Of a stretch of 64,000 nt of DNA, positions 3,783 to 33,154 are shown in pieces. The notes beneath the pieces are model-generated. The model saw only the letters and a program-made list of their open reading frames with translations. It did no database searches and was not told the origin of the DNA. Every line of letters begins with the position of its first letter. The stretch's first letter is position 1. This DNA comes from Armatimonadota bacterium (GTDB taxonomy: Bacteria; Armatimonadota; DTGP01; JAKQQT01), in contig DASXVS010000071.1 of the NCBI GenBank assembly GCA_036504095.1, positions 124,001 to 188,000 of the forward strand, read 5' to 3'. Position numbers and translations under genes: made by a program.

Positions 3783-4846
3783 GTATCAAACGATTCAGAG
3801 TCATCCACGGCCAGGGTGACGCCAAGTACGCGCCAGGATTCGGCGCTCGCCAGTCCTTCCAGTTTCACGGCGTCCTTCGCCGTCGTCACAATACGGAGGC
3901 CGCTTTCGCGAGCCCTTTCCTCGACTTCCGCCACCTCGGCCTGTGTGTAGCGATGATGGTCGGCGAAACGGCACGGCGTTACGGCCGCCCCCAGCATCGT
4001 CAGCGTCGCTTCGAACGACGCCGGATCGCCGAGCGATGACACTGCCAGAACCGCGGCGCCCTTCAGAGCGTCCGCGGGCGCCGGGTTTCCGCCTTCAAGG
4101 TCCGTCAAGCCGCAGGGAGCGTGGCGCGCGGTCCAGACCGGCGCGCCCATCGCTCCCACTTCGGCCTTCAGCGCGTTCAGCCTTTGAGGCGTCACCAGAT
4201 CCGAATGCGTGATCAGGATCGCATCGGCTCGGCGCAATTGGCGCTTCGGTTCACGAAGCAGGCCCCGCGGCAGCACATACCCGTAGCCCCAAGGTTCCAC
4301 GGCGTCGACGAGCACCAGGTCCACGTCGCGGTGAAGCCGCCAGTACTGGAATGCATCGTCACACAACAACACATCGGGCGCGAAACGCCGTTCCGCCTCT
4401 GCGCCCGACAGCACGCGCCGCCGCCCTATCAGAACCGGTGTTCCAGGCAGCGCCCGGGCCAGAAGCACCGCTTCGTCGCCGGCGGCCGCCGCGGTCATGC
4501 GGACGCACTCGCCATCCGAAACCACATTTACGGCGTCCTTATCACCGGCCCGATATCCGTAACTCAACACGGCCGCGCGCGTCCCGTTGCGGGCCAGCAG
4601 GCTTCCCAGGTACTGAATCGTCGTCGTTTTGCCGGTGCCGCCGACAGTAACATTGCCGACACTGAGTACTACCGCCCGCAGGCGCACCTTCCTCAGCATT
4701 CCGGCACGGTACATCAGCCAGTATAGAGTGATGACCGCCGTGTAGACGCCTGAGACCAGCCACAACACGAATCGCGCGGCGGAGGCCCCTGCCCCCTGCT
4801 CCTCGTCGCGCATAATGGCCAGCACGCGGTCGGTACGGTTGCTCAC
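3752..4846 (-). CDS. lpxK: Tetraacyldisaccharide 4'-kinase LpxK
   Basis: 364 aa from GTG 4846. This start overlaps the kdtA stop as GTGA, the pattern used throughout this operon; a longer frame to 4969 only shadows kdtA. LpxK phosphorylates the 4' position of tetraacyldisaccharide-1-P to make lipid IVA. A membrane helix lies at about residues 26-46, and the P-loop GNVTVGGTGKTT at about 64-75 is the LpxK-type Walker A. Further on, LLCDDAFQYWRLHRDVDLVLVDA matches the family DDGFQ(H) segment with Y-W in place of the usual H, and TTAKDAVKLEGL is the conserved C-terminal motif. Membrane-associated, facing the cytoplasm. Confidence 0.93.
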   Translation of the reverse strand: MSNRTDRVLAIMRDEEQGAGASAARFVLWLVSGVYTAVITLYWLMYRAGMLRKVRLRAVVLSVGNVTVGGTGKTTTIQYLGSLLARNGTRAAVLSYGYRAGDKDAVNVVSDGECVRMTAAAAGDEAVLLARALPGTPVLIGRRRVLSGAEAERRFAPDVLLCDDAFQYWRLHRDVDLVLVDAVEPWGYGYVLPRGLLREPKRQLRRADAILITHSDLVTPQRLNALKAEVGAMGAPVWTARHAPCGLTDLEGGNPAPADALKGAAVLAVSSLGDPASFEATLTMLGAAVTPCRFADHHRYTQAEVAEVEERARESGLRIVTTAKDAVKLEGLASAESWRVLGVTLAVDDSESFDTWILQYTRRD

Positions 4847-27876: not shown

Positions 27877-29058
27877 TCAGCCATTGGCAGGCGCCACGTT
27901 CAGACCTTCGCCCGCGCTTCTGGCATACTGCCGCGCCCAGGCGTCCACTGCCAGCACGGATTCCACCGTGTCGAGCGGCACAGCCGTGTGCGACCGCATG
28001 GTCTTCCGGACCACATCCACTATACCCGTAAAGGCCATATGGCCGCTCAAAAACAAGGCCACCGCTTCCTCGTTAGCGGCGGAAAACACAGCCGGGAGGC
28101 TCTGACCGATGCGCGCCGCTTCAAACGCAAGGCCAAGCCCGGGAAACCGGTCCGTATCCGGCGATTCAAATGCCAATCGGCCGATTGCCGCCAAGTCTAA
28201 ACGGGGGAGGTCATTAGCCGCCCGTTCCGGGTAGAACAGCGCATACTGGATCGGCAACCGCATATCCGGTACGCCCAATTGGGCTATCACGGAACCGTCT
28301 ACAAACTGCACCATGCTATGGATCACGCTCTGCGGATGGATGACAACCGAGATCCGTTCGGCGGGTACGTCAAACAACCAGTGCGCCTCGATAACTTCGA
28401 GGCCTTTGTTCATCAGCGTGGCGCAATCCACCGTTATCTTCGGGCCCATATTCCACGTCGGGTGCGCCAGCGCCTGTTCGGGCGTCACACTTGCGATGTC
28501 CTCGACCGGCCACGTCCTGAACGGCCCCCCACTCGCCGTCAGAATGAGTTTCTCAACCGTATCCGGCGCCTCACCATTCAAACATTGAAAAAGCGCGCTA
28601 TGTTCCGAATCGATGGGCAGCACGGCGGCGCCGTTCTCGCGGGCCGTCCGCATCACCAGTTCGCCGGCGGCCACGAGAACTTCCTTGGACGCCAGCGCAA
28701 CGTTCTTGCCCGCCTTCAGCGCGGCGAGGGTCGGCAGCAGTCCGATCGAGCCCTTTACGCTCACGACCACCGTGTGGACATCCGGGTGTGTGGCCGCCGC
28801 GATGAGGCCGTCCATCCCCTCCAGAACGGTGGCGCGCGGGCACAAGCCGCGCAACGATGCCGCCGCCTCGGGCTGCATCATGCTCAGCAGGCACGGTTGG
28901 TGCCGGGCCGCCTGTTCGGCCACCATCGCCCCGCTGCTGTCCGCGGCCAGCGCGACCACGCGCAGCCTGTCGGGGAATTGCAGCGCTACATCCAGCGTCT
29001 GTGTGCCGATCGAGCCGGTGCACCCAAGCACCGCTATCCCAAGTGGTTCACGATTCAT
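27877..29058 (-). CDS. dxr: 1-deoxy-D-xylulose 5-phosphate reductoisomerase
   Basis: 393 aa, standard length. This NADPH enzyme converts DXP to MEP, the second step of the non-mevalonate isoprenoid pathway. The NADPH-binding N-terminus IAVLGCTGSIGTQTLDV starts at about 8. Metal and substrate motifs are IDSEHSALFQCL (about 146), ASGGPFRTW (about 170), NMGPKITVDCATLMNKG (about 197) and EVIEAHWLFDV. The C-terminal helical domain is complete. It is upstream of rseP in the same direction. Confidence 0.95.
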   Translation of the reverse strand: MNREPLGIAVLGCTGSIGTQTLDVALQFPDRLRVVALAADSSGAMVAEQAARHQPCLLSMMQPEAAASLRGLCPRATVLEGMDGLIAAATHPDVHTVVVSVKGSIGLLPTLAALKAGKNVALASKEVLVAAGELVMRTARENGAAVLPIDSEHSALFQCLNGEAPDTVEKLILTASGGPFRTWPVEDIASVTPEQALAHPTWNMGPKITVDCATLMNKGLEVIEAHWLFDVPAERISVVIHPQSVIHSMVQFVDGSVIAQLGVPDMRLPIQYALFYPERAANDLPRLDLAAIGRLAFESPDTDRFPGLGLAFEAARIGQSLPAVFSAANEEAVALFLSGHMAFTGIVDVVRKTMRSHTAVPLDTVESVLAVDAWARQYARSAGEGLNVAPANG

Positions 29059-29231
29059 AAGAGTACAACCATGCTACGCCACGCGCGCCACGCGAAACAA
29101 GCATAACCCGGGGCCGCCGTACGGATGAGGCGCGGTACCGCCGATTCGGCGGGATCCGGCCGCGCTTTTCCGGACTCCGGTCCCCATTTCTGGCCATCAC
29201 GCCGCCATCTGTGCCAGAATGGTATTGTTCG

Positions 29232-29337
29232 CCAAAGGGGAGTAGCAGCGTCCACGCGGGACGCACGGCAGGCCAACAATCCCGAAGTTTACTTCTGGTC
29301 TGCCGAGCCGGACCCGGTCCGGGTGTGAGACCTTTGA
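29232..29337 (+). promoter_or_regulatory. yybP-ykoY (manganese) riboswitch aptamer
   Basis: The 333-nt gap before the exchanger gene contains the consensus 5' strand AAAGGGGAGTAGC (29234-29246) and the 3' strand GTGAGACCTTTG (29325-29336). AAAGG and CCTTT pair as P1. Between them are a P2 hairpin (GCGTCC/GGGACGC), a GGCAG...CTGCC helix enclosing CCAACA, and a CCGGAC/GTCCGG hairpin after CCGAG. This is the architecture of the Mn2+-sensing yybP-ykoY family. The aptamer ends 55 nt before the ATG. A GTGGC/GCCAC hairpin just ahead of the Shine-Dalgarno (about 29359-29377) could be part of the expression platform. Binding by Mn2+ is established for the family and inferred here. Confidence 0.85.
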
Positions 29338-29391
29338 CTACGCGTCGTAAGCTGCGCGTGGCCAAATGTCCGCCACACGCCCGGAGGTGAA

Positions 29392-30807
29392 ATGTCCCCG
29401 AAGAAGTCAATCGCGCTACTGTCGATGGCGGCCTTGCTGGCCTTGCCCGCGCTCATTGCCCGATTCACCCATCTGTCCCTGTCCGCCCCCGAAACCGCTC
29501 TCGTCTCGGGCCTCGCCATTCTCGGCGCCTCCTTTCTCCTTTTGTGGGCGTGTGACGCGGCCCAGGCCGACATCTCCCAGGCGATGGCGCTTGCGGTCGT
29601 TGCGCTGATCGCAGTGCTTCCGGAATACGCCGTGGACATGTACTTCACCTGGATGGCAGGAAAACACCCCGAGAGCCATTACGCCCAATACGCCGTTGCG
29701 AACATGACCGGCGCCAACCGCCTGCTCATCGGCGTGGCCTGGTCACTGATCGTGTTCATCTTCTACATCAAGACGAAGCGTCCCGTTCGCATCGGCGAGG
29801 ACCGAAGGCTGGAACTGCTCTTCCTCGCGATGGCAACGGTGTATGCGTTCTGTATTCCGCTCAAGGGCAGTCTCAACTGGTTCGACGGCATCGTCTTCCT
29901 CGGACTGTACAGCTGGTACATCGTCCTCGCTGCGCGCCGCCCGTGTGAAGATTCCGAAGCCCAGGGCGTCGCCGAAGTGCTTCTGCGGCTCCCACAGGCG
30001 AAGAGACGCATTGCGACCGCGGCGCTGTTCACGTTTTCCGCCGTCGTCATCGGCTTGAACGCCGGCCCGTTCAGCGAGGGGCTTGTCGGCGCCGGCAAAG
30101 TGTTCCACATGAACGAATTCCTGCTGGTTCAGTGGTTGGCTCCCATCGCGTCCGAAGCGCCCGAGTTCATCGTGGCCATCACGTTTGCGATCCGCGGCCA
30201 GGCCGGCCTTGCGCTCGGCAGCCTTCTGTCGGCGAAACTCAATCAGTGGACCCTGCTCATCGGGATGATCCCTGGCGCTTATGCGATCTCGCACGGCAGC
30301 CTTCAGCACCCGATTCCGATGAACTCATTCCAGATGCACGAGATACTGCTGACCGCTGCGCAGTCTTTCCTCGGCATTGTGCTTCTCGCAACCCTTCGGC
30401 TGTCGGTATGGCAGGCGATGCTGCTCCTTGGGTTGTTTCTCGGCCAATTCGCGGCGCCGGGTGTGGCGTCATGGTTCCCCCGCCTGTTGCCGGACGGGCT
30501 AACCGGAGACCGCATCCACCAGGTGTTCTCCCTGCTCTATATCACGTCGGGCATCACGGTCCTCGCAAACAGCCCCCACCGGATCAGGATGCTGTGGCGC
30601 GGTTTGCGGCCCGCGTTGCCGCTGTTCCGCCCTATCAGCAAGGATCTCCGCACCGCCCATTGCCTGGACTGCCCGTATCGTCAGGCCGCCATCGCATCCC
30701 GCCACCGCGGTCCGGGGGCGCAATCCGCGGTCTCAGGGGCGGCGCAATGTACTTGTCAAACGACCTTGCCGCCTGCACTGCCGGGCGCAGCGCACCCGAG
30801 AGATTGA
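29392..30807 (+). CDS. CaCA-family cation exchanger, probable Mn2+ (or Ca2+) exporter
   Basis: 471 aa inner-membrane protein with about eleven helices in two homologous halves. The inverted alpha repeats are visible as AVVALIAVLPEYAVDMYF...GANRLLIG (about 61-106) and LAPIASEAPEFIVAITFA (about 247-264), with the acidic Pro-Glu pairs that bind the cation. A yybP-ykoY riboswitch lies directly upstream, so manganese efflux is the most likely role. An unusual soluble tail of about 60 residues carries CLDC and CTC cysteine pairs. GGAGGTG precedes ATG 29392. Calcium exchange is the alternative; the riboswitch favours Mn2+. Confidence 0.83.
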   Translation: MSPKKSIALLSMAALLALPALIARFTHLSLSAPETALVSGLAILGASFLLLWACDAAQADISQAMALAVVALIAVLPEYAVDMYFTWMAGKHPESHYAQYAVANMTGANRLLIGVAWSLIVFIFYIKTKRPVRIGEDRRLELLFLAMATVYAFCIPLKGSLNWFDGIVFLGLYSWYIVLAARRPCEDSEAQGVAEVLLRLPQAKRRIATAALFTFSAVVIGLNAGPFSEGLVGAGKVFHMNEFLLVQWLAPIASEAPEFIVAITFAIRGQAGLALGSLLSAKLNQWTLLIGMIPGAYAISHGSLQHPIPMNSFQMHEILLTAAQSFLGIVLLATLRLSVWQAMLLLGLFLGQFAAPGVASWFPRLLPDGLTGDRIHQVFSLLYITSGITVLANSPHRIRMLWRGLRPALPLFRPISKDLRTAHCLDCPYRQAAIASRHRGPGAQSAVSGAAQCTCQTTLPPALPGAAHPRD

Positions 30808-30844
30808 CACGCTCTATACTACATGCTGAACGGAGGTGAACGCT

Positions 30845-31891
30845 TTGAGTGATTTGCCGACGACCATGATGGCCGTCACCAAACCGACGCCCGCGCCGGG
30901 CGTGGTAATCAAGGAAGTCCCTGTGCCGAAATGCGGCCCTGACGACGTGCTCGTCAAGATCCAGGCCGCCAGCATCTGCGGGACGGATGTCCATATTTAC
31001 AACTGGGATGCCTGGGCCTCCGGGCGGATGCACCCCCCGCTCACGATCGGCCACGAGCTGGCGGGCGTCATCGTCAAGGTCGGTTCAAACGTTTCCCGCG
31101 TTAAGCCCGGAGATTTCGTCAGCGCGGAATCGCATGTTATCTGCGGAAAGTGCCTCCAGTGCCGCCTCGGGCAGTACCATACGTGCCAGAACGTCAAGAT
31201 CCTGGGCGTTGACACGGACGGGTGCTTCGCGGAGTATGCCGTTGTCCCCGAAAACAACGTGTGGGTGAATGACGTCGGCCTGCCGGCGCACTTGGCCTCC
31301 GCGCAGGAGCCACTGGGAAATGCCGTCTACGCCACGCTGATTGAGCCCGTCACCGCCGCAAGCGTAGCGATCTTCGGCTGCGGCCCGGTGGGACTGTGCG
31401 CCGCTGCCGTTGCGAAAGCCGCCGGCGCAAGCCTCGTCGTCGCGGTGGACATAAACCCCTACCGTTTGGACCTTGCGGCGCGCATGGGCGCCTACGCCAC
31501 CCTCAACCCTAACGAAATCGATGTAGTCGCCGAGTTGAAGCGACGAACGAATGGTAACGGCGTTGACGTTGTCCTGGAGATGAGCGGGCACCCGACATGC
31601 GTCCAGCAGGGTCTCGATTCTCTGCGTCTCGGTGGCAGGTTCACTGCGTTCGGCATCCCCGCGAAGCCGGTTACGGTTGATTTCAATGAGATCATTTTCA
31701 AGGGAATCCGTCTGTTGGGCGTGTCTGGCCGGCGCATGTTCGAAACGTGGTACCAGACCGCCGCTCTCCTGAAGACGGAACGCCTGAACCTGTCCCCTCT
31801 CGTTACCCACCGCCTTCCGATGTCGGATTTCGACAAGGCGATGGACATCATGAAATCCGGCCTGTCCGGCAAGATAGTGGTCTCGCCGTAG
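30845..31891 (+). CDS. tdh: L-threonine 3-dehydrogenase
   Basis: 348 aa from TTG 30845, chosen because GGAGG lies 8 nt upstream; GTG 30836 sits inside that Shine-Dalgarno. The zinc-dependent medium-chain dehydrogenase oxidises threonine to 2-amino-3-ketobutyrate with NAD+. Catalytic Zn ligands are in SICGTDVHIYNWD (about 39) and GHELAG (about 65); the structural zinc site is CGKCLQCRLGQYHTC. The Rossmann motif GCGPVGLCAAAVAKAAG (about 176) ends in VAVD, consistent with NAD+. kbl follows, completing the pathway to glycine and acetyl-CoA. Confidence 0.93.
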   Translation: MSDLPTTMMAVTKPTPAPGVVIKEVPVPKCGPDDVLVKIQAASICGTDVHIYNWDAWASGRMHPPLTIGHELAGVIVKVGSNVSRVKPGDFVSAESHVICGKCLQCRLGQYHTCQNVKILGVDTDGCFAEYAVVPENNVWVNDVGLPAHLASAQEPLGNAVYATLIEPVTAASVAIFGCGPVGLCAAAVAKAAGASLVVAVDINPYRLDLAARMGAYATLNPNEIDVVAELKRRTNGNGVDVVLEMSGHPTCVQQGLDSLRLGGRFTAFGIPAKPVTVDFNEIIFKGIRLLGVSGRRMFETWYQTAALLKTERLNLSPLVTHRLPMSDFDKAMDIMKSGLSGKIVVSP

Positions 31892-31910
31892 AACGGTGTT
31901 TCGCGCTTCC

Positions 31911-31939
31911 GTGCCGGGCCGTCTAAGTACGCCCGGCAC
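31911..31939 (+). other. Intercistronic hairpin between tdh and kbl
   Basis: A perfect 9-bp stem GTGCCGGGC / GCCCGGCAC (31911-31919 with 31931-31939, 11-nt loop) lies 19 nt after tdh. There is no T-run, so it is probably an mRNA processing or stability element or a weak attenuator, not a full terminator. Confidence 0.5.
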
Positions 31940-31972
31940 GAGTGTTCAACTTACGCGTCTGAGAATTGTACA

Positions 31973-33154
31973 ATGTCAACAACCAACCCACTTTCCTATA
32001 TCACCACCGAGCTCCAAGCCATCAAGGACAGCGGCGCCTATCGCCCGTTGCGGGAACTACAGGGACCCCAGGGCGCCTCCGCCAGATTCGACGGCAAGGA
32101 CGTCGTTAACCTGTCCTCAAACAACTACCTTGGGCTCGCCAACGACCCTCGGCTCAATGAGGCCGCCATCAAGGCGATTGAAACACACGGCGCCGGCACC
32201 GGCAGCGTGCGGACCATCGCCGGCACGATGGACATCCACATGGAGTTAGAACGCCGCCTGGCCATTTTCAAGAAGACCGAGGCCGTCGTCGTTTTTCAGA
32301 GCGGATTCACCGCCAATGCCGGCACCGTCGCGGCCATTCTCGGCAAGGACGATGTGATCGTCTCCGATCGGCTGAATCACGCCAGCATCATTGACGGCGC
32401 GCGTCTCAGCCGGGCGGAGATCAAGGTCTACGAACACGCGGACATTGACAGCCTGCGCGAAAAACTGGCCGAGACCAAAGGCCGCCGCACCCTTGTAGTC
32501 ACGGACGGCGTGTTCAGCATGGATGGCGACATCGCACCCCTTCCCGGCGTGGTAGAGGCCGCCGAAGAGGCCGGCGCGGCCATCATGGTGGACGACGCCC
32601 ATGCGAGCGGCGTGATGGGCAGTAACGGGCGCGGAACCGTCGATCACTTCGGTCTCCACGGCCGCGTCCACATCCAGGTGGGCACGCTCAGCAAGGCCGT
32701 CGGCGTGCTCGGCGGTTACGTGGCCGGGAGCAAGGATCTCATTGAATGGCTGTACGTTCGCGGCAGGCCATTCCTGTTTTCCTCGTCCCACCCGCCGGCG
32801 GTCGTGGGCGCGTGCCTCGCGGCGCTGGATATCCTGGAGAACGAGCCGGAACGCATCGAGCGTCTGTGGGAGAACACGCGCTTCTTCAAGAAGGGCCTCT
32901 CCGATCTCGGTTTCGACACGGGCGCCAGCGAATCGCCCATCACGCCGGTCATCGTCGGTGAAACCGAGGACGCGGTCAAATTCTCCGAGAGCCTGTTCCG
33001 CAGGGGCGTGTTCGCCCAGCATCTCGGGTTCCCAACGGTGCCGAAGGGCCGCGCGCGCGTGCGGACCATCGTCACCGCCACCCACACAACCGAACAATTA
33101 CAGTTCGCACTCAATGCGTTTGAGGCTGCCGGTCGCGAACAGGGGCTCATCTAG
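31973..33154 (+). CDS. kbl: 2-amino-3-ketobutyrate CoA ligase (glycine C-acetyltransferase)
   Basis: 393 aa PLP enzyme of the alpha-oxoamine synthase family. It splits 2-amino-3-ketobutyrate with CoA into glycine and acetyl-CoA. Landmarks are NLSSNNYLGLANDPRL (about 44), GTGSVRTIAGTMDIH (about 80), FSMDGDIAPL (about 182), VDDAHASGVMG (about 204) and the PLP lysine in GTLSKAVGVLGG (about K241). The gene pairs with tdh 81 nt upstream. No clear Shine-Dalgarno precedes ATG 31973, which is unusual for a core enzyme. BioF is the alternative in this superfamily, but tdh context decides. Confidence 0.94.
   Translation: MSTTNPLSYITTELQAIKDSGAYRPLRELQGPQGASARFDGKDVVNLSSNNYLGLANDPRLNEAAIKAIETHGAGTGSVRTIAGTMDIHMELERRLAIFKKTEAVVVFQSGFTANAGTVAAILGKDDVIVSDRLNHASIIDGARLSRAEIKVYEHADIDSLREKLAETKGRRTLVVTDGVFSMDGDIAPLPGVVEAAEEAGAAIMVDDAHASGVMGSNGRGTVDHFGLHGRVHIQVGTLSKAVGVLGGYVAGSKDLIEWLYVRGRPFLFSSSHPPAVVGACLAALDILENEPERIERLWENTRFFKKGLSDLGFDTGASESPITPVIVGETEDAVKFSESLFRRGVFAQHLGFPTVPKGRARVRTIVTATHTTEQLQFALNAFEAAGREQGLI

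Follow-up and report, generated by a model that had tools for sequence, protein, structure and literature searches.

In the present study, the leader of a cation exchanger gene in the window (the whole analysed stretch of 64,000 nucleotides from an Armatimonadota bacterium) was identified, from its sequence, as almost certainly a yybP-ykoY Mn2+ riboswitch, which would bind Mn2+ as the known members of its class do. We give a probability of about 0.7 to the overall reading that this RNA switches on translation of a CAX_Af-type exchanger at high Mn2+, and that the exchanger carries Mn2+ out of the cell, most likely in exchange for H+. The element is ordinary as an RNA and informative as a gene assignment. 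For a transporter branch whose structure is solved but which has so far been known only for calcium, it names a likely substrate. The CAX_Af branch would also join the few families of bacterial Mn exporters, which according to a 2026 paper comprise CDF, MntP, UPF0016 and P-type ATPase, plus TerC.

Identification of the aptamer

An earlier note on this DNA had placed both conserved strands of the yybP-ykoY aptamer in the gap before the exchanger gene. Both are present in the window sequence, AAAGGGGAGTAGC at 29234-29246 and GTGAGACCTTTG at 29325-29336, and this ordered two-strand motif occurs once in the window, as compared with 0.0025 occurrences expected per strand in first-order Markov simulations. 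When the 122-nt aptamer stretch was folded in isolation, P1.1/P1.2, P2, P3 with an open L3, and P4 were obtained, so that the four-way junction layout is present. The parts of the predicted aptamer are as follows.

29225-29344, + strand: whole yybP-ykoY aptamer, complete with four helices; the exchanger gene starts 47 nt after its end
29232-29238, + strand: P1.1 5' strand (CCAAAGG), partner 29331-29337; 96% of cells paired in 44 distinct leaders, with double-sided changes
29239-29244, + strand: L1 5' side (GGAGUA), identical in 45/45 leaders
29245-29247, + strand: P1.2 5' strand, partner 29324-29326, from the fold and the leader alignment
29248-29264, + strand: P2 hairpin (GCGUCC/GGACGC), from the isolated fold; its length differs among relatives
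29266-29305, + strand: P3.1, L3 and P3.2; P3.1 and P3.2 covary in both leader alignments (10 and 45 leaders)
29308-29322, + strand: P4 hairpin (CCGGAC/GUCCGG), from the isolated fold
29327-29337, + strand: L1 3' side (GAGA) and P1.1 3' strand (CCUUUGA); A29328, G29329, A29330 and C29331 are the same in 45/45 leaders

Dinucleotide shuffling gave a modest z of -1.5 for the aptamer alone; folding energy by itself is therefore no proof, and the case rests on conservation and comparison. Across 45 leaders, the L1 core GGAGUA/GAGA is constant save one variable base and the C-A-x-C-A of L3 is constant (C29274, A29275, C29277, A29278 and U29296-G29298 do not vary in 45/45), which agrees with the Mn-binding core. 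When mapped onto the solved aptamers, A29241 is the counterpart of the A-minor adenosine A10 of X. oryzae, and A29278 that of the Mn-contacting adenosine (A48 in X. oryzae, A41 in L. lactis); in the crystal structures it is N7 of the L3 adenosine that contacts Mn2+ (PMC6754395). The known yybP-ykoY RNAs (RF00080; E. coli mntP and alx, L. lactis yoaB, X. oryzae) share the same four helices, L1/L3 and the Mn-contacting adenosine, and they likewise lie just 5' of a metal transporter gene, but the gene regulated here is a CAX_Af-type exchanger. Breaker's group expects variants of yybP RNAs that are tuned to a different divalent metal (PMC7266159). It is very improbable that the present aptamer is one of them, as its L1/L3 core hardly changes in 45 leaders and the matches in Armatimonadota precede known Mn exporter families.

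A search with the Rfam model, which the earlier note had proposed as a check, was formally negative. RF00080 of Rfam release 15 (177 positions, cut-off 45 bits) returned nothing in the window at the gathering cut-off; under permissive settings the score was 9.5 bits. However, the same model scored the validated E. coli mntP leader at 41.6 bits, also below the cut-off, and it did not list the E. coli alx leader even at E<=5. Since proven switches fail likewise, this test does not discriminate, and the miss was dropped as a refutation of the riboswitch. The leader of a sister exchanger (L044) reached 43.8 bits (E 1.3e-8) with RF00080, which is above the score of mntP.

A first covariance model was built from 10 leaders and run over 80 named exchanger relatives, then rebuilt from 45 leaders and rerun. 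Model R1 gave the window aptamer 101.6 bits (E 3e-26), the window copy being part of its training set. Model R2, trained on exchanger leaders, returned the exchanger leader as the sole match in the window's own genome (E 2.2e-16). In addition, R2 found both E. coli mntP (47 bits, 3.7e-10) and alx (24.8 bits, 1.4e-4), which ties the exchanger leaders to proven Mn2+ riboswitches and upholds the yybP-ykoY identity proposed earlier. Because proven Mn riboswitches escape RF00080 in its current form and at its current cut-off, the distribution of this class is under-counted.

Conservation of the leader before exchanger genes

The same leader was found in 7 of the 8 closest exchanger relatives, all from the phylum Armatimonadota. 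When 10 leaders were aligned with no structure as a guide, 26 consensus pairs emerged, and 10 of these had double-sided changes. With 45 leaders the paired cells amounted to 94.2%, double-sided changes were seen in 18/26 pairs, and the covariation score was 0.554, against 0.202 for shuffled and at most 0.116 for slid alignments; the larger alignment had been fitted to the structure, to the advantage of the score, whereas the 10-leader alignment had not. Together with the isolated fold, this covariation confirms the earlier claim that P1 and the internal helices stand in the right order. The rebuilt model placed the aptamer just 5' of the exchanger in 40 of the 80 named relatives, always on the strand of the gene, and these 40 loci come from seven phyla (Armatimonadota, Thermodesulfobacteriota, Deferribacterota, Verrucomicrobiota, Acidobacteriota, Planctomycetota and Bacillota). 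In the 507 kb searched, the sole other match lies before a TerC gene that adjoins the exchanger in Symbiobacterium (L098).

The low RF00080 score and the modest z of the aptamer alone could be read as a chance motif next to a GC-rich hairpin, with no riboswitch at all. This is hardly credible and was refuted by the covariation across 44 distinct leaders, by the 40/80 placements 5' of one gene family, and by the recovery of the E. coli controls with the exchanger-leader model, on both of which RF00080 fails too. The Mn2+ riboswitch very probably controls the exchanger gene. About half of the listed exchanger relatives are without it, including an archaeal branch that resembles CAX_Af, and no common Mn theme appeared among the genes upstream of the riboswitch-less relatives. 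A conserved gene neighbourhood was not found either; dxr, rseP, tdh and kbl are not regular neighbours of the exchanger.

Some further observations concern the surroundings of these genes. In the window, threonine dehydrogenase-like and 2-amino-3-ketobutyrate ligase-like aminotransferase genes (30836-33154) lie 3' of the exchanger; the first starts 28 nt past its stop and may share the transcript, and this arrangement is not conserved in relatives. In Symbiobacterium, the adjacent exchanger and TerC genes have one Mn riboswitch each (L098:2757-2872 and 4276-4394), the first being followed by a terminator-like hairpin and a T-run. Downstream of a Solidesulfovibrio exchanger locus there is a cobalamin riboswitch (L071:7051-7200).

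Proposed expression platform

The earlier note had set a riboswitch upstream of the exchanger, which was confirmed, but it had offered no mechanism of expression. The elements between the aptamer and the start codon on which a translational switch would depend are as follows.

29319-29327, + strand: putative switching strand A (CCGGGUGUG); part of P4/P1.2 in the ON state and of the sequestering helix in the OFF state
29376-29384, + strand: putative switching strand C (CACGCCCGG); overlaps the first two Shine-Dalgarno bases; the A:C duplex is conserved in relatives
29338-29361, + strand: inner hairpin of the predicted OFF structure (CUACGCGU/GCGCGUGG), from the minimum-energy fold of the full leader
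29383-29387, + strand: Shine-Dalgarno sequence GGAGG, 4 nt 5' of the ATG

In the minimum-energy fold of the full leader, a long hairpin takes the place of P4, P1.2 and P1.1 (z -3.2). Its outer helix is formed by 29319-29327 with 29376-29384 and runs into the Shine-Dalgarno sequence. For strands A and C, the mean pairing energy was -17.4 kcal/mol within a leader and -15.8 kcal/mol across species (14 distinct leaders; permutation p 0.0018, uncorrected for relatedness). In all 14 leaders, forcing the aptamer cost stability, the unconstrained fold being lower in energy by about 4 to 13 kcal/mol. When the aptamer was forced, the predicted pairing of the Shine-Dalgarno sequence dropped in 10 of the 14; in the window leader it went up (0.52 to 0.79), as it did in L120, L122 and L130, so that thermodynamic folding fails to reproduce the release step for the window. 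Scans of 29050-29450 gave no sigma-70 promoter and no intrinsic terminator with a U-tract; a transcriptional platform is therefore not claimed for this leader.

These results suggest a translational ON switch as the best reading, both for the direction and for the level of control. At low Mn2+, strand A and the P1.1 3' strand would pair with downstream sequence ending at the Shine-Dalgarno region, and the resulting long hairpin would occlude it. At high cytosolic Mn2+, the ion would dock L1 onto L3 and stabilise P1 and P4; strand C would then be freed, the ribosome-binding site exposed and the exchanger translated, which would export Mn2+, most likely against H+.

The exchanger and its likely substrate

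29392-30807, + strand: CAX_Af-type cation exchanger, 471 aa; Pfam PF01699, E 9.5e-27

The regulated gene had been called a CaCA exchanger without a branch. The superfamily stands, with a Na_Ca_ex domain in two repeats, and the branch can now be given as CAX_Af, not NCX or YrbG. The fold is that of CAX_Af, and the family profile matched PDB 4kpp at E 6e-135. This entry is CAX_Af of Archaeoglobus fulgidus, an assignment that is consistent with PMC10227063. The AlphaFold model (pLDDT 84.8) superposes on 4kpp_A with a TM score of 0.95 (target length), 1.9 A and 40% identity, whereas NCX_Mj, VCX1 and YfkE are far more distant; the tail past about residue 405 is poorly modelled and not conserved. 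None of E78, E255 and E258 varies across the 34 sequences aligned, and the alpha-repeat glutamates align with 4kpp, which has the same E78 and E255/E258 motifs. A YRBG-type CaCA identity (TIGR00367/PRK10734), as in the group of Bordetella BP3410, was rejected; the NCBIfam models fit poorly (23.9 bits vs 432 for NF008005 and 19.5 vs 179.65 for TIGR00367), so the exchanger is not in that branch. Sequence and modelled fold place it within the CaCA superfamily in the CAX_Af branch, and it would be expected to perform H+-coupled exchange of divalent cations.

In a quick tree, 40 of the 41 riboswitch-bearing rows, the window included, fell in one supported group of 64, and the group with the archaeal proteins, which differ from the window exchanger in being without the riboswitch, had it in 1/17. 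C54 and S277 are invariant in the riboswitch-rich clade; in the other clade, A54 stands at the first of these positions and mostly A277 at the second. C54, S277 and L283 were considered as markers of the riboswitch and rejected, as they track the tree instead: A54 is found in all rows of the other clade, including the riboswitch-bearing Symbiobacterium protein.

The Mn2+ efflux proposed by the earlier note is the best-supported function, but it is not proven, the nearest solved relative being deposited under the title H+/Ca2+ exchanger. As 4kpp has the same metal-site motifs, Mn and Ca are not separable by sequence. It could therefore be argued that the exchanger mainly exports Ca2+ or divalent cations broadly, and that the riboswitch makes Ca2+ export respond to Mn stress; MgtA of S. 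pneumoniae, under the same riboswitch class, does export both Ca2+ and Mn2+, though as a primary ATPase and not a secondary exchanger. We consider this unlikely in view of the Bordetella CaCA exchanger BP3410, which is under yybP-ykoY control, is induced by Mn with Ca having no effect, and is described as an Mn exporter (PMC8546581; PMC9936198). In addition, the exporters TerC, GDT1 and MntP were not found in the window's own genome, which is 98.6% complete. The regulator DtxR/MntR was absent from it as well.

Export of Mn2+ as the main function of the exchanger is likely, with H+ as the presumed counter-ion. It is best supported because, within the phylum, genes of known Mn exporter families also have this RNA in front of them, because the known exporters (MntP, TerC, GDT1) are missing from the own genome, and because the Bordetella exchanger exports Mn. 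Against it count the lack of the riboswitch in about half of the listed relatives and two CDFs of the own genome, which could also export Mn. Some CAX proteins carry Mn2+ (PMC4982074). Such an exporter may be the way in which this bacterium, which has three Nramp importers and no MntR, MntP, TerC or GDT1, handles excess Mn.

Mn exchange by a CaCA protein under yybP-ykoY is known once, from B. pertussis BP3410 (YRBG-type), and the CAX_Af case adds another branch. Both are CaCA-superfamily exchangers under the same RNA, but the nearest solved relative of BP3410 is NCX_Mj, and BP3410 is apparently controlled by early transcript termination, whereas the window leader probably acts by occlusion of the ribosome site. 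The V. vulnificus yrbG gene has also been listed under yybP-ykoY (PMC13274385). Our literature search returned no paper linking the CAX_Af branch to yybP-ykoY; most subscription papers, notably the Dambach 2015 gene survey, were outside its scope, so priority is not established. The CAX_Af-type family is probably an overlooked bacterial Mn exporter, its pairing with the riboswitch recurring in at least seven phyla. We lean towards the wider view that the branch contains a widespread class of bacterial Mn2+/H+ exporters, recognisable by the Mn riboswitch and serving organisms without MntP, TerC and UPF0016.

In the phylum, matches to the aptamer model were found in 69 of 291 Armatimonadota genomes. 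The frames downstream were CaCA exchangers of more than one branch (25), TerC (19), M48 proteases (12), GDT1/UPF0016 (4) and a P-type ATPase (1). Since distant CaCA exchangers of other branches also have the riboswitch (L023, L025, L027, L030, L133, L135), CaCA genes probably came under the yybP-ykoY switch more than once. A link between this riboswitch and M48 proteases was not reported in the one paper of our literature search that contained both terms. The 12 matches in question lie about 50-65 nt before genes for M48 (HtpX-like) membrane metalloproteases (L144, L154, L155, L158, L160, L161, L162, L166, L172, L174, L178 and L183).
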